Positions 56,536 to 64,000 of a stretch of DNA of 64,000 nucleotides are shown piece by piece (position 1 is the first letter of the stretch; each line of letters begins with the position of its first letter). The stretch is from Fusobacterium varium (lineage in GTDB: Bacteria; Fusobacteriota; Fusobacteriia; Fusobacteriales; Fusobacteriaceae): assembly GCA_002356455.1 (NCBI GenBank), contig AP017968.1, positions 434,001 through 498,000 of the forward strand. Reading direction: 5' to 3'. Made by a program: the position numbers and the translations under genes. The notes below the pieces were generated by a model. That model saw only the letters and a program-made list of their open reading frames with translations, did not search any database and was not told where the DNA came from.

Positions 56536-56564
56536 TTTACAAAAAAATAAAAAGGTAGTATAAT
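56536..56564 (+). promoter_or_regulatory. Promoter of the racemase-TRAP operon
   Basis: TTTACA, 17 bases, TATAAT, 55 bases before the ATG. Confidence 0.65.
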
Positions 56565-56572
56565 ACAATCAA

Positions 56573-56591
56573 TATAACATCCTACGTTATA
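56573..56591. promoter_or_regulatory. Putative GntR (FadR-type) operator
   Basis: TATAACATCCTACGTTATA, a 19-base palindrome right after the -10, covering the likely transcription start. A related palindrome precedes the gntR gene (60169-60187). Confidence 0.5.
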
Positions 56592-56619
56592 CAAAGGATG
56601 AAAAAAATAGGGGGTTAAT

Positions 56620-57291
56620 ATGAAAGTAGCTTTAGTTTATACAAGTACTACACCAGAATTAATAGAATTAGTTGAAGAAGAAGTGGGGAAAGTTCTGCCG
56701 GAAGGAACAGAAATTTTATCATATCAAGATCCAAGTATACTAGCAGATGTAAGAACAGCTGGATATGTAACTCCAGCACCTGCAGCTCGTTTGATAGCAA
56801 TGTATATGAAGGCTGTAAGTGCAGGTGCTGATGCAATCTTAAATATTTGTTCTTCAGTGGGAGAAGTAGCTGATTCTGCACAAAATATTGCTAAGTATAC
56901 AGGAATTCCAATTGTAAGAATAGATGAAGAAATGTGTAGAGATGCAGTTAGAAATGGAAACAAGATTGTAGTTATGGCAACACTTCCAACAACACTTGAG
57001 CCAACAAAAAATACTATAAAACGTGTAGCTAGAGAAATAAATAAGCATGTTGAGTTAATAGATTGTCTTATAGATGGAGCATTTGGGTTAGACCAAGAGC
57101 AATTTAAAGCATTAATGATAGAATATGCAGGAAAAGTGGCTAATGAAGCAGATGTTATATTATTTGCTCAAGGGTCTATGGCATATTGTGAAGAGATAAT
57201 TAGAGAAAAATATGGGAAAATGGTTGCTTCAAGTCCCAGATATGGAGCATTGGCTTTAAAAGAGGCATTAACAGCAAAAGGAATGATATAA
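56620..57291 (+). CDS. Asp/Glu racemase-like protein
   Basis: 223 aa of the aspartate/glutamate/hydantoin racemase superfamily. The first catalytic cysteine is C77 in LNICSSVGEV and the nearby GADAILN context is typical. In the second half, where two-cysteine racemases have a catalytic cysteine, this protein reads FAQGSMAYCEE, with S186 at the expected place and C190 four residues on. It may therefore be a one-base epimerase, a maleate-isomerase-like enzyme or a lyase rather than a standard racemase. AGGGGG precedes the ATG. It heads the TRAP cluster. Confidence 0.75.
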   Translation: MKVALVYTSTTPELIELVEEEVGKVLPEGTEILSYQDPSILADVRTAGYVTPAPAARLIAMYMKAVSAGADAILNICSSVGEVADSAQNIAKYTGIPIVRIDEEMCRDAVRNGNKIVVMATLPTTLEPTKNTIKRVAREINKHVELIDCLIDGAFGLDQEQFKALMIEYAGKVANEADVILFAQGSMAYCEEIIREKYGKMVASSPRYGALALKEALTAKGMI

Positions 57292-57324
57292 TAGAGGAAT
57301 AAATAAAACTAGGAGGAAATAAAA

Positions 57325-58338
57325 ATGTTTAAAGAAAAATTAACAAAGATTTTCTCAATAGCAACAGCAATGATAATATTTTTTTCCTTAATGGGATGTG
57401 AGGACAACTCTAAGGATGGAAAAATAATTATTCGTATGACTCATACACAACAACCAGAGTCTATTAGTGATTTAACAGCAAAGGAATTTAAAAAATATGT
57501 GGATGAAAAATCAGATGGAAGAATTCGTATTGAAATTTATCAGAACTGTGGGCTTTCTGGTGGAGATTTGACAAAAGCAATTGAACTAGTACAGGCAGGA
57601 AATATAGATATCCATGTATGTGCTCCAGCAAATATTGCAAACTATAACCCAAAATTTTATGCTTTCTGGCTTCCATTTTTATTTGATTCAACTGAAGATT
57701 TAGTTAGATTTGTAAACAGTGAAAGAGCTAAAACTGAAATTAACAAATGGTGTAATGATTTGGAAATGACTATGCTTGGAATAAATAATGCTGGTTCTAG
57801 ACAAATTTCAAGTAATAAAGAAATACATTCACCTGAAGATTTAAGAGGAATGAATATACGTGTTCCAGGAGCAAATGTATTTATAGATTTATATAGAGAT
57901 TATTTTAAAGCAAATCCAACAGCTATGGATTTTTCAGAAGTGTATACTTCACTTCAGCAAAAAACTATTGATGGGCAGGAAAATCCAATAGCAGTTTTTA
58001 ATTCATCAAAATTCGCAGAAGTTCAATCAAATGTTTTACTATGGGATGGAGTTCGTGATACAAATATATGGGTAATAAGCAATAAAACATTAGAAAAATT
58101 GTCACCAGAAGATGCAAAAATTATTCAGGAAAGTGCAGCAGAAGCCCTTCAATGGGGAAATGATTATCTTGCAGCAAATGAATCTTCAATTATAGAAAAA
58201 CTTGAAAAGAATGGAACAAAATTTGCAAGATTAACAGATGAAGAGAGAGAGAAATTTAAAGAGGCTTGTGCAGGAATTTTTGTTAAATATGTGAATGTAG
58301 TGGGACAAGATGTTATTGATTTGTTCCAGGGCAAATAA
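57325..58338 (+). CDS. TRAP transporter substrate-binding protein (DctP family)
   Basis: 337-aa lipoprotein. The signal peptide ends in the lipobox LMGC (C25), so the mature protein is membrane-anchored. The DctP fold is shown by MTHTQQPES, VQAGNIDIHVCAPANIANY, GMNIRVPGANVFIDLY and the conserved arginine region near SLQQKTIDGQENPI. These binding proteins recognise organic acids through an arginine-carboxylate contact, so the ligand should carry a carboxylate. AGGAGG precedes the ATG. DctQ and DctM follow. Confidence 0.93.
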   Translation: MFKEKLTKIFSIATAMIIFFSLMGCEDNSKDGKIIIRMTHTQQPESISDLTAKEFKKYVDEKSDGRIRIEIYQNCGLSGGDLTKAIELVQAGNIDIHVCAPANIANYNPKFYAFWLPFLFDSTEDLVRFVNSERAKTEINKWCNDLEMTMLGINNAGSRQISSNKEIHSPEDLRGMNIRVPGANVFIDLYRDYFKANPTAMDFSEVYTSLQQKTIDGQENPIAVFNSSKFAEVQSNVLLWDGVRDTNIWVISNKTLEKLSPEDAKIIQESAAEALQWGNDYLAANESSIIEKLEKNGTKFARLTDEEREKFKEACAGIFVKYVNVVGQDVIDLFQGK

Positions 58339-58356
58339 TAAAAGGAGGATATTGTT

Positions 58357-58866
58357 ATGGATAAATCACAAGGCTTCTTTAAAGAATTTTGGGATAATTT
58401 CGAAGAATATTTATGTTCCATAGCTCTGGTAATTATGGCAGTGGTAACATTTATGAATGTATTTTCACGTAAAATTACTTGGTTTAATATGTCATTCAGT
58501 CAAGAATTAGTAACAACAATGTTTGTATGGGTATGTTGTTTGGCAGCAGCAAGTGCATTCAAAACAGATTCTCATATGGGATTTGCTTATGTAACTGATA
58601 AATTTAGAGGAAATACAAGAGTAATACATGCATGGTTCCGTTTGCTTATATGTTGTGCAAACTATGGAATTTGGGTCATTTGGGGAACGGTTATGGTGTA
58701 CAGACAATATAAATATGGATTGCTTACAGGGGTTTTGGAGATGCCAAGCTGGCTTATAGGACTGGCAATTCCATTATCAGCAGTATTTTCTATAATTAGA
58801 ATGATTCAATATGAATCAGCTATAAATAAAGATCCTGAAGAACAGGCTAAAAGAAAGGGGGAATAA
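58357..58866 (+). CDS. TRAP transporter small permease (DctQ)
   Basis: 169 aa with four membrane helices (LCSIALVIMAVVTFMNVF near 24-41, and ELVTTMFVWVCCLAAASAF, for example). It is the standard length for the small TRAP membrane subunit. AAAGGAGG precedes the ATG. It lies between the binding protein and the large permease with gaps of 18 and 4 bases. Confidence 0.93.
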   Translation: MDKSQGFFKEFWDNFEEYLCSIALVIMAVVTFMNVFSRKITWFNMSFSQELVTTMFVWVCCLAAASAFKTDSHMGFAYVTDKFRGNTRVIHAWFRLLICCANYGIWVIWGTVMVYRQYKYGLLTGVLEMPSWLIGLAIPLSAVFSIIRMIQYESAINKDPEEQAKRKGE

Positions 58867-58870
58867 TTAA

Positions 58871-60136
58871 ATGGCAGCAGCAATATTATTTATATCATTG
58901 GCAGTTTTTATACTTTTAAACATTCCTATTTCTATTTCTTTAGGACTATCAAGTGCTTTGACTTTGATGGCTACAGGATCACCATTGGGAGTAATTCCTT
59001 CAATGATGCAGGCAACTGTACAGAAGTTTTCACTATTAACTATTCCACTATTTGTATTAGCAGGAGTATTAATGGATAAAGGGGGGATTTCAAAAAGACT
59101 TATAAATCTTGCAGACAGTATGATGGGACCAATTCATGGAGGTTTGGGGTATGTAGCAGTTATAAGTGCTTTATTTTTTGCAGCAATATCTGGATCGGGG
59201 ACAGCTACAGTAGCAGCAATGGGATCAATTTTAATACCAGCGATGATAAAGCAAGGATATGATAAAGGGTTTTCAAGTGCACTATCTGCAATATCAGGTT
59301 CACTAGGAACAGTAATACCTCCAAGCATAACATTTATTATTTATGGAATGATAACAGGAGAATCTATTAGCGATTTGTTTCTTTCAGGAATTGTTCCAGG
59401 AATAATATTTGCAGCTATGCTTTGCTTAACTGTATTTATTTATTCGAAAAAAAATGGCTGGAAAGGAGATAAACCAAAAGCAAGCAGAAAAGAAATTATG
59501 AAAATTTTCTGGGGAACACTTCCAGGGTTCTTGAGTCCAGTTATTGTACTGGGAGGAATTTATTCAGGATTCTTTACACCAACAGAAGCAGCAGCAGTGG
59601 CTGTAATATATAGTTTTATTGTAGGAAAATTTGTTTATAAAGAACTAAATTTTGAAGCATTAAGAGAAACATTGTTTAGTACAGCAAAAACTACAGGAAT
59701 TATTTTATTAATTATTATGAATGCAGGTATATTTTCATGGATTTTAACACAACAGGGAATTGCAACTCAATTAACAGAACTTGCAATTGGATTTACTACA
59801 AATAAATATATAATGCTGTTAATAATTAATATTGTATTCTTAATGGCAGGTTGTGTTATGGATAATACAAGTGCACTTTATATAATTGTACCAATAATTC
59901 TTCCAATAGCAAAAGCATTAGATATTAACTTAGTACATTTAGGAGTAATTTTAGTATTAAATTTATCAATTGGGCAAGTTACACCACCAGTAGGACCAAA
60001 TCTTTATGTCGCGGCTGATATAGGTAAGGTTAAATTTGAAGTAATTTGTCGTAAAATGGTTCCATTATTGCTAATGTCTTTAGTAGCACTTCTGATTATT
60101 ACATTTGTTCCTTGGTTAACAACATGTTTAATATAA
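58871..60136 (+). CDS. TRAP transporter large permease (DctM)
   Basis: 421 aa with about 12 membrane helices and the DctM core motifs ISGSGTATVAAMGSILIPAM, GSLGTVIPPSITFIIYG, GFFTPTEAAAVAVIYS and NLSIGQVTPPVGPNLYV. It performs Na+-coupled uptake together with DctP and DctQ. Regular length for DctM. Confidence 0.96.
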   Translation: MAAAILFISLAVFILLNIPISISLGLSSALTLMATGSPLGVIPSMMQATVQKFSLLTIPLFVLAGVLMDKGGISKRLINLADSMMGPIHGGLGYVAVISALFFAAISGSGTATVAAMGSILIPAMIKQGYDKGFSSALSAISGSLGTVIPPSITFIIYGMITGESISDLFLSGIVPGIIFAAMLCLTVFIYSKKNGWKGDKPKASRKEIMKIFWGTLPGFLSPVIVLGGIYSGFFTPTEAAAVAVIYSFIVGKFVYKELNFEALRETLFSTAKTTGIILLIIMNAGIFSWILTQQGIATQLTELAIGFTTNKYIMLLIINIVFLMAGCVMDNTSALYIIVPIILPIAKALDINLVHLGVILVLNLSIGQVTPPVGPNLYVAADIGKVKFEVICRKMVPLLLMSLVALLIITFVPWLTTCLI

Positions 60137-60168
60137 TAATTGCACAAAATTTCAGTTTGTTATATACT

Positions 60169-60187
60169 TAACTATAGGTATGTTATA
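60169..60187. promoter_or_regulatory. Putative GntR operator upstream of its own gene
   Basis: TAACTATAGGTATGTTATA. Read in the same sense, the operator at 56573-56591 gives TATAACGTAGGATGTTATA, so both carry TAGG(T)ATGTTATA. A further GTTATATA half-site lies just upstream (60159). Confidence 0.45.
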
Positions 60188-60205
60188 TAGAAGGGGTAAT
60201 AATTA

Positions 60206-60916
60206 ATGAAAGAGAATAAATTTATGTCAGTTTCATTAGCTAATAAATCAGTAGTGGAACGAATAACAGATCAAATTACAAATGCAATTATTAATGGAGA
60301 ATTAAAACCAGGAGATAAAATTCCAACTGAAGTAGAATTATGTGAATCATTTGGTGTAGGAAGAAATTCAGTACGTGAAGCAATAAAAATTTTAGAAGCT
60401 TATGGAGTACTGGAAATCAGACGTGCAGATGGGACATATATACGTCAAGAATATGATGACAAAATGCTGTATCCAATCTTATATGGAATTATTTTGCAAA
60501 AAGATTCTAAAGAACAGATAGTAGAATTGAGAAAAGTAATTGATGTAGGAATTTTTCAGGAAGCAATGAAAAGGATGACAAAAGAAGACTTTAAGAAATT
60601 AGAAGAAGAATTGTCTAAAATGGTGGAAAAAATTAATAAGGAAACTCCATCACCACAAGAAATGTTTGAAGCAGATGTAAAATTTCATACTGTCATTGTA
60701 GAAATTTTAGATAATCGTCTTTTAGAAAGTATTGGATATTATGTAGATAAAATTACAAAATCTAGTCGTATAATTGCAAATGAGTATATTTTAAAGCATG
60801 GGCATCAGGAAGATTTTATAACACTTCATAGAGAAATAATTGAAATGTTTAGAGAAAAACAATCAGGAAGAATTCATGAAATAGTAGAAAAACATTACAA
60901 ATATTGGGAAAAATAG
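60206..60916 (+). CDS. FadR-type GntR transcription regulator
   Basis: 236 aa. The winged-helix N-terminus (ITDQITNAIINGELKPGDKI and GVGRNSVREAIKILEAYGVL, about 18-75) is followed by an FCD effector domain at about 100-225. That domain has the metal/ligand residues D and H in EADVKFHTVIVE and a His-rich KHGHQEDFITLHREI. FCD domains bind carboxylates and acid sugars. AAGGGG precedes the ATG. It sits between the transporter and enzyme genes and is a likely regulator of both. Confidence 0.92.
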   Translation: MKENKFMSVSLANKSVVERITDQITNAIINGELKPGDKIPTEVELCESFGVGRNSVREAIKILEAYGVLEIRRADGTYIRQEYDDKMLYPILYGIILQKDSKEQIVELRKVIDVGIFQEAMKRMTKEDFKKLEEELSKMVEKINKETPSPQEMFEADVKFHTVIVEILDNRLLESIGYYVDKITKSSRIIANEYILKHGHQEDFITLHREIIEMFREKQSGRIHEIVEKHYKYWEK

Positions 60917-60921
60917 AAATA

Positions 60922-60989
60922 GCCGCGAAAATAATGCGGCCTGGAAAACGGGCTTTAATTTAAAGTCCGTTTTTATTTTTAAATTAAAG
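60922..60989 (+). promoter_or_regulatory. Hairpin, terminator and SD-overlapping alternative pairing
   Basis: A GCCGC/GCGGC hairpin (60922-60940) is followed by a terminator stem ACGG.CTTTAA/TTAAAG.CCGT with TTTTT (60948-60975). Segment 60953-60964 (CTTTAATTTAAA) is also exactly complementary to 60978-60989 (TTTAAATTAAAG), which runs into the cupin gene's AAAGGAGG. The two pairings exclude each other. Confidence 0.5.
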
Positions 60990-60999
60990 GAGGATAATA

Positions 61000-61353
61000 A
61001 TGATTTATAAAAAAGCAAAAGAGATAGAATCTATTCCAATAGAACATTGTATGGGGGGAGAAGGATTCGTAATGATGGAAAAACTTTTAAATGCTCCAGA
61101 AGAAATGTTAGGGAAAGGTCGTGCCTATGTTCGTCATACACTTAAACAAGGGGTAAGTATTGGAATGCATACCCATAAAAAAGAAATGGAAACAATGGTA
61201 GTAATAGCAGGAAAAGCAGTACATACTATCAATGGAGAAATGCAATATTTAGAAGTTGGGGATATTATTGGAGCAATGCCAGGGGATACTCATAGTATAG
61301 CTTGTGAGGGAGAAGAACCATTAGTAGTAATAGCTCAAGTATTATATGAATAA
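61000..61353 (+). CDS. Small cupin-domain protein
   Basis: 117-aa single-domain cupin. Metal ligands are visible as H57 and H59 in GMHTHKKEME, E62/E64, and H98 in PGDTHSI. The second motif GDIIGAMPGDTHSI is standard. Small cupins in sugar-acid clusters can be isomerases or lyases (for example KdgF on unsaturated uronates) or regulators; this one is not assignable. A good AAAGGAGG precedes the ATG. The BKACE gene follows after 20 bases. Confidence 0.8.
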   Translation: MIYKKAKEIESIPIEHCMGGEGFVMMEKLLNAPEEMLGKGRAYVRHTLKQGVSIGMHTHKKEMETMVVIAGKAVHTINGEMQYLEVGDIIGAMPGDTHSIACEGEEPLVVIAQVLYE

Positions 61354-61373
61354 AAATTGATCAGGAGGAAAAA

Positions 61374-62171
61374 ATGACAAATAAAGTATTAATTTCTGTG
61401 GCACCAGTTTCTGCTGCAGATAAACATATAGATCCAAAAAAAATAGCAAAAGATGTAATTGAATGTGCAAAGGCAGGAGCAGCAATGGTTCACCTTCATG
61501 TACGTGAGAAAGATGGAAGTTTGACACCTGATCTTACTGTATTGAAAGAGACAGTAGAATTAATAAGAGCTGAATCAGATATTATTATTCAAGCATCAAC
61601 TGGTGGAATATCTAATCTCACTATAGAGGAACGTTGCGCCCCTTTATATTATGATAAAGTTGAAGCTTGTTCTTTAAATGTAGGATCTACAAATCTTGGA
61701 AATGCAGTTTACTGTAACCCTATTCCAGAGGTAAAATATTGTATAGAAGAAATTATAAAAACAGGTAAAACACCAGAGATAGAAGTATTTGAGATAGGAC
61801 ATACACATCAAACAACAGAGCTTTGCAAAGAATATAATATGAAAATGCCGCTTTTATTCAGTGTTGTACTTGGTCATCCTGGGGAAGCTCCAGGAACACC
61901 AGAAGCTTTAATGGCAATGGTAAATTTTATTCCTAAGGATGCAATATGGGGAATTACACATGCTCATAGAAAAGATTTTGGAATTATAGCAGGGGCTCTT
62001 GGACTGGGAGCTAAGACAGTACGTATTGGTTTTGAAGACAGCGACTATTTAGATCCAGAAGCTAGAGTAGATACTAATGTTCCATTGGTAGAAAAAGTAG
62101 TGAAACTTCTTCATGCAATGGATAAGGAAGCAATGACACCAGATGAAGCAAGAAAAATGCTGAATATGTAG
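61374..62171 (+). CDS. BKACE-family beta-keto acid cleavage enzyme (DUF849)
   Basis: 265-aa TIM-barrel zinc enzyme of the family typified by Kce, which cleaves a beta-keto acid with acetyl-CoA to acetoacetate and a new acyl-CoA. Zinc ligands are H40 and H42 in VHLHVREKDG and probably E221 in RIGFEDSDYL. Other markers are QASTGGIS, FEIGHTHQT and GITHAHRKD. The substrate varies across the family, and a slightly short length and the local sugar-acid genes point to a novel subfamily rather than lysine fermentation. AGGAGG precedes the ATG. Confidence 0.88.
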   Translation: MTNKVLISVAPVSAADKHIDPKKIAKDVIECAKAGAAMVHLHVREKDGSLTPDLTVLKETVELIRAESDIIIQASTGGISNLTIEERCAPLYYDKVEACSLNVGSTNLGNAVYCNPIPEVKYCIEEIIKTGKTPEIEVFEIGHTHQTTELCKEYNMKMPLLFSVVLGHPGEAPGTPEALMAMVNFIPKDAIWGITHAHRKDFGIIAGALGLGAKTVRIGFEDSDYLDPEARVDTNVPLVEKVVKLLHAMDKEAMTPDEARKMLNM

Positions 62172-62182
62172 GGGGAAAAAGA

Positions 62183-63619
62183 ATGAAAGAGATTGCACTG
62201 GAGATTGAAATATTAGACTCATACAAATCAATGAATGAAGAAGAACTAAATAAACAGCTTTTAGAATGCGTAGAAAAAAATGAGAAAAAAATCATTGTTT
62301 TAGATGATGACCCTACTGGAGTACAGACAGTGCATGATGTGTCTGTATATACAGACTGGTCAGAAGAGAGTATTCGTGAAGGATTTAATGAGACTGGAAA
62401 ACTGTTCTATATATTAACTAATTCCAGAGGATTTACTGTGGAGCAGACTACAAAATGTCATACAGAGATAATTCAGAATGTAAATAAGATTTCTAAAGAA
62501 ACTAAGAAAGAATATATGATTATAAGTAGAGGAGACTCCACTTTAAGAGGACATTATCCTTTAGAAACAGAACTGCTTCGTAAAGGGTTTGAAGCCGATG
62601 GGGCAAAACATGTAGATGGTGAGATTATGTGTCCGTTTTTTAAAGAGGGAGGAAGATTTACCATAGGAAATATTCACTATGTTAAAAATGAAAATCTTTT
62701 AGTACCAGCAGGGCAGACAGAATTTGCTAAGGATAAAACATTTGGATATACATCTTCAAATTTATGTGAATATATTGAGGAAAAAACAGAAGGAAAGTAT
62801 CAGGCTGATGGAGTAACTTGTATTTCTTTGGAAGAACTTCGTGGAATTAAAATTGATGAAATAACAGAAAAGCTATTAAAAGTGGAAAATTTTGGAAAAG
62901 TGGTAGTTAATGCAGTGGACTACTGTGACTTGAAAGTCTTTGTAATAGCTTTGTATAAAGCAATGGAACAAGGTAAGAATTTCATGTTCCGTGTAGCAGC
63001 AGCGATTGTTAAAGTTATTGGTGGAATTTCTGATCAACCTCTTCTTACAAGAAAAGATATGGTAGTTAAAGAAACAAAAAATGGCGGAATAATTGTAGTT
63101 GGTTCACATACTCAAAAAACAACAAATCAGGTAGAGGAATTGAAAAAATTGAAGGATCTTATTTTTATGGAATTTGATTCTGATCTGGTACTTGATGAAG
63201 CAGATTTTCAAAAAGAGATAGAGAATACACTAAAAACTGAGGAAGAGCTGATATCTTCTGGAAAAACAGTTGTAGTATATACAAAAAGAAAATTGCTTGT
63301 TGTGGAAAATGACACTAAGGAAGATGCTCTTATACGTTCTGTAAAAATTTCTGATGCAGTGCAGTCTTTAGTTGGAAAACTTAAAGTAACTCCAGCTTTT
63401 GTAATAGCAAAAGGGGGAATAACTTCCAGTGATGTTGGAACAAAAGCATTAAAAGTAAAAAAAGCAAATGTACTGGGACAAATTCGTCCAGGAATACCAG
63501 TATGGCAGACAGGAGCAGAGAGTAAATTTCCAATGATACCATATATTATTTTTCCTGGAAATGTAGGAGAAGTGGAAACATTAAGAGAGGCTGCAGAGAT
63601 TTTATTAGATAATGAATAG
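62183..63619 (+). CDS. Four-carbon acid sugar kinase family protein (DUF1537)
   Basis: 478 aa of the DUF1537 kinase family (OtnK, DtnK and LtnK relatives). The N-terminal acid-sugar-binding domain has VLDDDPTGVQTVHDVSVYTD (about 36-55) and SRGDSTLRGHYPLE (about 113-126). The C-terminal ATP-binding domain has GSHTQKTTNQ, FVIAKGGITSSDVGTKAL and PGNVGE. Known members phosphorylate D-threonate, L-threonate, D-erythronate or 3-oxo-tetronate, so an acid sugar or keto-acid sugar is the expected substrate. The class II aldolase follows after 8 bases. Confidence 0.9.
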   Translation: MKEIALEIEILDSYKSMNEEELNKQLLECVEKNEKKIIVLDDDPTGVQTVHDVSVYTDWSEESIREGFNETGKLFYILTNSRGFTVEQTTKCHTEIIQNVNKISKETKKEYMIISRGDSTLRGHYPLETELLRKGFEADGAKHVDGEIMCPFFKEGGRFTIGNIHYVKNENLLVPAGQTEFAKDKTFGYTSSNLCEYIEEKTEGKYQADGVTCISLEELRGIKIDEITEKLLKVENFGKVVVNAVDYCDLKVFVIALYKAMEQGKNFMFRVAAAIVKVIGGISDQPLLTRKDMVVKETKNGGIIVVGSHTQKTTNQVEELKKLKDLIFMEFDSDLVLDEADFQKEIENTLKTEEELISSGKTVVVYTKRKLLVVENDTKEDALIRSVKISDAVQSLVGKLKVTPAFVIAKGGITSSDVGTKALKVKKANVLGQIRPGIPVWQTGAESKFPMIPYIIFPGNVGEVETLREAAEILLDNE

Positions 63620-63627
63620 GAGGAAAA

Positions 63628-64000
63628 ATGTCTTATAATTATAGGGAACTAGGGCTGGTAAACACTAGAGAGATGTTTAAGAAAGCTAATGAAAATGGAT
63701 ATGCAGTTCCAGCTTTCAATTTTAATAATTTGGAACAGGCTTTGGCAATAATAGAAGCTTGTGCAGAAACAGGGTCGCCAGTGATACTTCAATGTTCAAA
63801 AGAGGTTATAGAATATATAGGAGCAACAATGATACCCTTGATAGCAAAAGGGGCAGTGGACTATGTAAAAGCATCAGGGTCAGAGATTCCAGTAGCATTG
63901 CATTTAGATCATGGTTCAAACTTTGAAATGACTAAAAAATGTATAGATATTGGTTTTTCATCTGTAATGTTTGACGGATCTCATTATCCCTTTGATGAAA
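63628..64000 (+). CDS. Class II fructose-bisphosphate-type aldolase, 5' part
   Basis: First 124 codons of a zinc-dependent class II aldolase; it continues beyond the window. YAVPAFNFNNLEQALAIIEA, SPVILQCSKE, ALHLDHGSNFEMTKKCIDIG (catalytic D and zinc H in HLDHG) and VMFDGSHYPFDE are diagnostic. FBA, tagatose-bisphosphate and other ketose-phosphate aldolases share these, so the true substrate may be an acid sugar phosphate made by the preceding kinase. AGGAGG precedes the ATG. Confidence 0.9.
   Translation, partial: MSYNYRELGLVNTREMFKKANENGYAVPAFNFNNLEQALAIIEACAETGSPVILQCSKEVIEYIGATMIPLIAKGAVDYVKASGSEIPVALHLDHGSNFEMTKKCIDIGFSSVMFDGSHYPFDE

Follow-up and report, generated by a model that had tools for sequence, protein, structure and literature searches.

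At the end of a stretch of 64,000 nucleotides of Fusobacterium varium DNA (GenBank assembly GCA_002356455.1, contig AP017968.1, positions 434,001 to 498,000, or G000:C1:434001-498000, in a genome of 4.12 Mb; hereafter the window), there lies an operon of nine genes which probably encodes an undescribed pathway for acid use. As a tentative reading, we propose that it serves the breakdown of a hydroxylated keto or sugar acid, which is brought in by a tripartite ATP-independent periplasmic (TRAP) importer, and that it does so with no dehydrogenase gene among its members. Three of its enzymes, namely a racemase-fold protein, a divergent beta-keto acid cleavage enzyme (BKACE) and a DUF1537 kinase, form a common core across three phyla in which no redox enzyme is included, while the cupin and the aldolase are additions observed in fusobacteria only.

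Content and ends of the operon

The nine genes are listed below by their positions in the window. All of them run in the same direction, and the profile matches confirm what the original prediction, made from the letters of the window, had claimed, namely that the genes it named stand together on one strand at this place.

56620..57291, plus strand: racemase-fold protein of the Asp/Glu racemase superfamily (PF01177, 52.4 bits against a cut-off of 31; Cys77 and Gln184)
57325..58338, plus strand: DctP, TRAP solute-binding protein (PF03480)
58357..58866, plus strand: DctQ, small permease (PF04290)
58871..60136, plus strand: DctM, large permease (PF06808)
60206..60916, plus strand: GntR-family regulator with FCD domain (PF00392 and PF07729)
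61000..61353, plus strand: small Cupin_2 protein (PF07883)
61374..62171, plus strand: divergent BKACE (PF05853, 215.2 bits against a cut-off of 24.8)
62183..63619, plus strand: DUF1537 acid-sugar kinase with SBD_N and NBD_C domains (PF07005 and PF17042; 163.4 and 120.6 bits)
63628..64000 in the window (124 residues), continuing to 64611, plus strand: class II aldolase of the fructose-bisphosphate aldolase (FBA) type (PF01116; in full 327 amino acids, L006:9628-10611, 320.9 bits)

The spacing between the genes is 4-33 bases, with the exceptions of 69 bases upstream and 83 bases downstream of gntR, and the TRAP importer is complete, since DctP, DctQ and DctM are all present. The original prediction proposed reading on past position 64000 for a dehydrogenase, isomerase or CoA enzyme that would define the route. 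In the DNA read beyond the window, the aldolase, ending at 64611, is the last gene of the operon, and there is no dehydrogenase among the open reading frames (ORFs) of 56349-64611 or just beyond (the rest of the genome was not searched for one). Downstream of the aldolase, two ORFs on the minus strand carry transposase domains of the IS91 type (Y2_Tnp and Zn_Tnp_IS91; L006 10955-12163); an RpiR-type regulator and then unrelated genes come after them. A shortening of the operon by this insertion is rejected, because the operon also ends at the aldolase in the sister genomes G026, G027 and G028, and therefore the IS91-type insertion did not cut it short. In G028 the RpiR-type gene comes directly after the aldolase with nothing between, and the other two sister genomes have a symporter-like ORF, apparently broken in G027, between these two genes; by eye, a terminator-like hairpin follows the aldolase in both G026 and G027.

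Conservation of the gene neighbourhood

A search of genomes for this neighbourhood, as the original prediction had proposed, proved fruitful, since by tblastn the nine genes occur in identical order in the three further genomes of the genus and the core recurs in Spirochaetota and Bacteroidales. As the order is kept in three other genomes, the grouping is not due to chance; in G026 the cupin match is split over two frames at residue 101 (L027 8171-8523), which reflects a frameshift or an assembly error. The BKACE of the operon is present at 1e-50 in 4 of 98 Fusobacteriota genomes, all of one genus. At 1e-40 it is matched in 1 of 296 Bacteroidota, 1 of 301 Chloroflexota and 3 of 247 Spirochaetota genomes (one of the three within the same branch of the family), as well as in 4 of 199 genomes of one Bacteroidota family, where G098 and G1062 hold branch members; at 1e-45 there is 1 match among the 29 genomes in the family of G546. 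The BKACE of the Spirochaetota genome G099 was found in a looser search and missed at the stricter cut-off of 1e-40, and the scan of genome contigs gave 3 loci out of 18 stretches.

In the Spirochaetota locus L026, the genes keep the same order, with identities of 60% for the racemase-fold protein, 50% for DctP, 53% for DctQ, 74% for DctM, 48% for the GntR protein and 56% for the BKACE, followed by the start of the kinase; no cupin gene lies between gntR and the BKACE gene. The remainder of a kinase (52% identical) is on a separate contig of the same genome (L069), with unrelated genes after it, and if both kinase pieces are one gene, this operon ends at the kinase without an aldolase. In the Bacteroidales locus L012, the kinase gene (35%) is directly upstream of the BKACE gene (40%), then comes a transporter of the major facilitator superfamily on the opposite strand (top model D-galactonate transporter, 247.2 bits, below the cut-off of 395), and then the racemase-fold gene (44%). 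Moreover, in G099 the BKACE is located at a contig end (L013) and the end of a kinase at the start of another contig (L070), before a GarR-like dehydrogenase. This is possibly a fourth genome in which BKACE and kinase go together, but the contigs are unjoined.

The surroundings of two branch BKACEs are as follows. In the same Spirochaetota locus L013 (1426-10549), we observed a TRAP cluster with two-part transketolase-like ORFs (by eye), a FabG-like short-chain dehydrogenase/reductase (SDR), two ORFs with weak matches to models of sugar isomerases/epimerases, and the terminal branch BKACE, in which the catalytic Glu is Val. In the Chloroflexota genome G100, the branch BKACE is apparently split over two contigs (L014 9419-9961 and L035 1-615), and upstream of it there is an ORF of 180 amino acids, cupin-like by eye, for which no NCBIfam family match was found at 1e-6.

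Enzymes of the operon

For the racemase-fold protein, the AlphaFold model (mean predicted local distance difference test, pLDDT, 89.6) has allantoin and hydantoin racemases as its best Foldseek matches, followed by glutamate racemases. A two-base racemase mechanism uses two cysteines. In 8 of 8 aligned proteins from six phyla, Cys77 (motif CSSxG) is invariant and Gln184 (motif AQxSM) occupies the second catalytic position, where it aligns with a Cys of the allantoin racemase 5lfd, the alignment being a weak one (E 0.027). A two-cysteine racemase is thus rejected, its second catalytic position being Gln and not Cys, and the epimerisation that the original prediction had taken as the default loses its footing for the same reason; we read the protein as an isomerase or epimerase that would act on an oxo acid by means of one base. 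The homologues of this protein stand in diverse contexts. On the plasmid clusters of Deinococcus taeanensis (L049) and Rhodococcus antarcticus (L050), the gene lies directly upstream of adjacent genes for a DUF1537 kinase and a PF01116-type aldolase, a likeness to the present operon; unlike it, these clusters have a sugar importer of the ATP-binding cassette (ABC) type together with an oxidoreductase of the SDR family, and no BKACE among the genes listed in an incomplete gene table. On Caballeronia and Paraburkholderia plasmids, the homologue is accompanied by an ABC importer for sugars and by an oxidoreductase, which proved to be an extended SDR in the single case scanned, and in Rhizobium and Sinorhizobium it is found among oxidoreductases dependent on flavin adenine dinucleotide and ABC transporters, partly with an aminotransferase or an amidohydrolase, so that the family by itself is no pointer to acid sugars.

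The BKACE of the operon matches four NCBIfam activity models and stays under the cut-off in every case. In a tree of 15 sequences, which is a small sample, seven branch members from Fusobacteriota, Spirochaetota, Bacteroidota and Chloroflexota separate from eight canonical enzymes with support of 100/100; two rows, the L014 fragment and a partial Priestia sequence (L015), were left out of this tree. Compared with the known enzymes (Kce; BKACE15, PDB 8RIO, 8RIP and 9HNF; the deoxyribonate BKACE), the protein shares the fold, the zinc-site residues and the catalytic Glu and Arg. In fact it retains the HLH motif (His40, His42), Glu137, Arg217 and Glu221-Asp222, and its Glu137 and Arg217 align with Glu171 and Arg254 of BKACE15, where Glu171 was demonstrated to be catalytic (PMC11961710). 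It differs from them by its separate branch, by scoring under the activity-model cut-offs and by having His196 where they have a small residue; the branch also has a one-residue insertion upstream of the VRxG motif and, in Fusobacteriota and Spirochaetota, a shortened N-terminal loop. By VIA-align, the AlphaFold model (pLDDT 87.9) is closest to 3lot, Kce and BKACE15, which are tied at Z scores of 30.1, 30.0 and 29.8, and cis-epoxysuccinate hydrolase, another member of PF05853 as judged by the names of the structures 5zmu and 5zmy, follows at 28.0.

The kinase lies far under the curated models, with 59.1 of the 450 bits needed for D-threonate kinase (NF047819) and 33.9 of the 350 for 3-oxo-tetronate kinase (NF043035), and the Deinococcus kinase is likewise under the former cut-off (77.3 of 450). 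With such scores, and with a cluster that has no dehydrogenase, membership in a tetronate pathway is rejected. Structures of DUF1537 proteins exist; searched by sequence at 0.001, no solved relative of this kinase was found. In a kinase tree, 1 of the 10 inner branches was well supported and the tree was left unused. Relatives occur at 1e-5 in 9 of 72,556 plasmid records, and the nearest (54-56%), in Priestia and Ligilactobacillus, are flanked by a GarR-like protein on one side and a gluconate symporter on the other, a layout shared by a Niallia plasmid. Three NCBIfam models named 2-hydroxy-3-oxopropionate reductase, after a compound that is a beta-oxo acid, were used on the GarR-like proteins: the one from Priestia passes two (486.3/397 and 378.8/340.75) and fails the third (240.3/451), and the one from Ligilactobacillus passes one (405.5/397), is just under the second (339.8/340.75) and fails the third.

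Two other relatives of the kinase were observed. G027 has a second DUF1537 kinase (52%; L058 7448-12755, in G027:C1:3108000-3124000). Near it are a tripartite importer of the Tct type, recognised by eye, and an aldolase of the HpcH/HpaI type scoring under the cut-offs of its models; with no adjacent dehydrogenase, this locus is possibly a sister system. In G043 a relative (L059 7815-8798) is without about the first 140 residues and lies near ORFs resembling pieces of mobile elements, and it is probably a decayed copy.

A class II aldolase, as the original prediction had it, is indeed present, but it is of the FBA type (PF01116) and not of the OtnC/AraD type. It is 70.5% identical to L037, one of three other PF01116 proteins of the same genome (L036, L037 and L039), and 29.9-35.7% identical to the enzymes of Arthrobacter (29.9%), Deinococcus and Rhodococcus, which points to the probable recruitment of a local FBA. 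All 4 genus genomes have the motif NVSTDGS in this enzyme, where L037 and L039 have NVDTDGR and L036 has NIATELK. When aligned to the Giardia FBA, the positions of Asp255 and Arg259, which presumably bind the distal (6-phosphate) half of fructose 1,6-bisphosphate, are both Ser in 4 of 4 genomes, and the position of Arg280 is Lys, as it is in L039. With the half-site for dihydroxyacetone phosphate (DHAP) apparently intact and the distal phosphate site changed, the enzyme would be expected to yield DHAP and an unphosphorylated partner.

Proposed pathway

In the pathway that we tentatively propose, DctPQM would import the acid, and the GntR-FCD protein would sense it and act as repressor of the operon. 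The one-cysteine racemase-fold enzyme would then shift or invert the hydroxyl/keto centre beside the carboxylate to give a ketose-like acid, the DUF1537 kinase would phosphorylate the terminal hydroxyl, and the FBA-derived enzyme would split the product into DHAP and a small unphosphorylated carboxylated partner; at the Spirochaetota and Bacteroidales loci, a housekeeping FBA might do the cleavage instead. For this partner we suggest a small beta-oxo acid such as malonate semialdehyde, from which the zinc-dependent BKACE with acetyl-coenzyme A (acetyl-CoA) would form acetoacetate and a short acyl-CoA, namely formyl-CoA in the case of malonate semialdehyde, so that the products could be used by a butyrate fermenter with no redox step. 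All enzymes are thereby given a task except the cupin, and the weakest steps are those of the racemase-fold enzyme and of the BKACE. The pathway is favoured by the gene order kept in four genus genomes, by the core shared among three phyla, by the invariant Cys77 and Gln184, by the changed aldolase motif, by the retained BKACE residues, and by the relatives of the kinase that stand beside GarR-like proteins or, with a racemase-fold gene, beside a PF01116-type aldolase. The idea of the original prediction, in which the imported acid is phosphorylated by the DUF1537 kinase and cleaved by an aldolase to give a triose phosphate, agrees with the gene families and their relatives. A comparable system is the myo-inositol route, where the kinase IolC and the PF01116 aldolase IolJ lead to DHAP and malonate semialdehyde; the difference is that IolC is a PfkB kinase and that malonate semialdehyde is consumed by IolA and not by a BKACE. 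More than 20 of 124 BKACEs convert malonate semialdehyde with acetyl-CoA in vitro (PMC11961710).

Several observations weigh against this pathway. The aldolase is not seen at the Spirochaetota L026/L069 or Bacteroidales L012 loci, and the aldolase step may thus not belong to the ancestral route. The linkage of the core is incomplete, as no racemase-fold gene was found at 1e-12 in G1062, G099 and G100, all of them carriers of branch BKACEs, and no kinase in G1062 and G100, the completeness of these genomes being unstated. The catalytic Glu is replaced by Val in the distant branch member L013. Moreover, His196 of the branch, at the end of strand 7, corresponds to Gly, Ala or Ser in 9 canonical homologues and 5 solved proteins (Asn in G1062, and outside the partial L013 sequence), by which the use of CoA may be unlike that in the rest of the family. 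The Arg at the second changed position of the aldolase is retained in the Arthrobacter and Rhodococcus enzymes, not in that of Deinococcus, which calls for caution about the distal site, and 2 of the 3 GarR contexts of related kinases are incompletely classified. Furthermore, a beta-oxo acid derived from the aldolase need not be the BKACE substrate. In Arthrobacter the kinase and the PF01116 enzyme turn 2-oxo-threonate into DHAP, what is lost being CO2 rather than an aldehyde acid (PMC12540250).

Alternative pathways

In acid-sugar catabolism, DUF1537 kinases have a place in the four-step tetronate pathways of LtnD/DenD, OtnI, OtnK and OtnC, which Zhang et al. 2016 reportedly described. The likeness lies in the kinase and the acid-sugar setting; the present operon differs in having neither an OtnI-type isomerase nor a dehydrogenase, and in its PF01116 aldolase, OtnC being an Aldolase_II protein and not PF01116 (PMC12540250). 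A nearer relative is the three-step L-threonate route (Guo 2024, as cited in PMC12540250), in which LtnD is followed by the DUF1537 kinase 2-OtnK and the F_bP_aldolase-type 2-OtnC to give DHAP; Arabidopsis LTD can be placed with it. The route shares with the present operon the DUF1537 kinase and F_bP_aldolase-type enzyme leading to DHAP, and an FCD-type regulator, recognised by eye, in Arthrobacter L051; it differs in that the present operon has no LtnD or other dehydrogenase, adds the racemase-fold enzyme, the BKACE, the cupin and the TRAP importer, and has an aldolase nearest to an FBA-type protein of its own genome. This weakens the claim that the gene set stands apart from known acid-sugar pathways: the L-threonate route already pairs a DUF1537 kinase with a PF01116 enzyme, albeit together with a dehydrogenase, which is missing here. 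As the original prediction had stated, no described pathway with this exact gene set appears among the matches listed in the open-licence literature, where subscription papers are mostly missing, and no paper there names both a four-carbon acid sugar kinase and 3-keto-5-aminohexanoate cleavage.

Almost as likely as the pathway above, though likewise uncertain, is that the operon is itself such an oxo-tetronate route. Its kinase and FBA-type enzyme would correspond to 2-OtnK and the F_bP_aldolase-type 2-OtnC, the closing steps of the three-step L-threonate/D-erythronate pathway, converting 2-oxo- or 3-oxo-tetronate into DHAP and CO2; the racemase-fold protein would then be an isomerase or epimerase of the oxo acid, and the BKACE would prepare the oxo acid or handle a side product. 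In Arthrobacter, 2-OtnK and 2-OtnC act after LtnD, and Arabidopsis fuses such domains (PMC12540250). The Arthrobacter locus L051 comprises the FCD-type regulator ORF, a kinase 30% identical to that of the operon, a protein resembling LtnD (its best model, L-threonate dehydrogenase, gives 245.1 bits where 350 are needed), an ORF like a permease and an enzyme of the PF01116 type, and in Deinococcus L049 an SDR precedes the racemase-fold, kinase and aldolase genes. These parallels are offset by the missing dehydrogenase, by an aldolase much closer to L037 than to the Arthrobacter enzyme, by the low scores of the kinase against both tetronate kinase models, though the Deinococcus kinase is low as well, and by the lack of a clear role for the BKACE.

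In an unlikely alternative, the BKACE works with zinc but no CoA and decarboxylates (or isomerises) a beta-keto acid: the racemase-fold enzyme would turn a 2-oxo into a 3-oxo acid, the kinase would phosphorylate it, and the BKACE would remove CO2 from it to leave a ketose phosphate. Such a route accounts for the core of three enzymes, with an aldolase added later, and agrees with the loci of two phyla in which the core occurs with no aldolase observed, with the separate branch marked by His196, the insertion and the shortened loop, and with the other activity in the family, that of cis-epoxysuccinate hydrolase. Yet the catalytic Glu and Arg and the zinc-site residues of the CoA-dependent enzymes are retained, the model is closest to 3lot, Kce and BKACE15 with the hydrolase slightly further, and the searches made turned up no member of this family that is a beta-keto acid decarboxylase.

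Quite improbable is a deoxy-acid route similar to deoxyribonate oxidation, in which the BKACE with acetyl-CoA would cleave a 3-keto-2-deoxy acid into acetoacetate and glyceryl- or tetronyl-CoA and the DUF1537 kinase would phosphorylate the freed acid. Deoxyribonate use in P. simiae requires a BKACE and a glycerate kinase (PMC6365646), but the formation of the 3-keto acid requires a dehydrogenase, of which there is none in the operon, and the PF01116 aldolase is left without a role. Finally, that the BKACE is a standard lysine-fermentation Kce, as the original prediction had allowed in naming a lysine-fermentation pathway, or a misplaced gene unconnected to its neighbours, is suggested by PF05853 membership and is largely refuted, since the protein has 206.7 bits against the Kce model (NF052387, cut-off 382), a separate protein elsewhere in the genome (L001) passes with 461.1, and the adjacency of BKACE and kinase is repeated across phyla.

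Importer, regulator and candidate regulatory sites

The 13 nearest solved DctP sequences are sialic-acid-binding proteins (best E 6.5e-38), and a sialic-acid-type ligand was not adopted from them because this group is broad. The candidate sites in the region are as follows.

56536..56564, plus strand: sigma-70-like promoter TTTACA-17-TATAAT, 11 of 12 matches, the best of 43 hits in the region
56577..56600, plus strand: candidate operator, inverted repeat CATCC..GGATG, just downstream of the -10 box
60922..60940, plus strand: conserved small hairpin GCCGCGAAAATAATGCGGC, exact in 3 of 4 genus genomes, with one inserted base in G028
60944..60974, plus strand: terminator-like hairpin in the gap between gntR and the cupin gene, 14 pairs and a loop of 3

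The number of promoter-like hits, 43 in the region and 45.3 on average in shuffles, is uninformative by itself; by eye, the promoter stands at the equivalent position in the three sister genomes. The candidate operator reads ACATCCTACGTTATAC(A/G)AAGGATG in 4 of 4 genus genomes, and a different palindrome, CATACTATGTAGTATG, stands at the equivalent position in the Spirochaetota relative, both as judged by eye.

Between gntR and the cupin gene (60917-60999), the conserved hairpin AGCCGCGAAAATAATGCGGCCTGG is followed by the terminator-like hairpin, from which 25 bases remain to the cupin start codon. The region has 4 hits of this terminator-like kind, where shuffles give 2.4. The terminator-like hairpin is retained in all four genus genomes, and by eye one of its pairs has changed on both sides, from A-U to G-C. 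As these 25 bases give little space for a promoter, a partial terminator or attenuator is suggested, and the two hairpins are candidates for an attenuator or an RNA of the 3' untranslated region. No Rfam family matches this region at its gathering score, the 20 weak matches (E 0.09-10) being all under gathering scores and taken as chance, and an exact match to it is absent from viral contigs.

Implications

Altogether three enzyme groups, the one-cysteine racemase-fold proteins, the BKACE branch and the DUF1537 group, co-occur in three phyla, and therefore their joint substrate is approachable through one solute-binding protein. If true, a redox-free route for an acid sugar would be unusual among fermenters, and the BKACE branch would widen a family that is employed in synthetic CO2 reduction.

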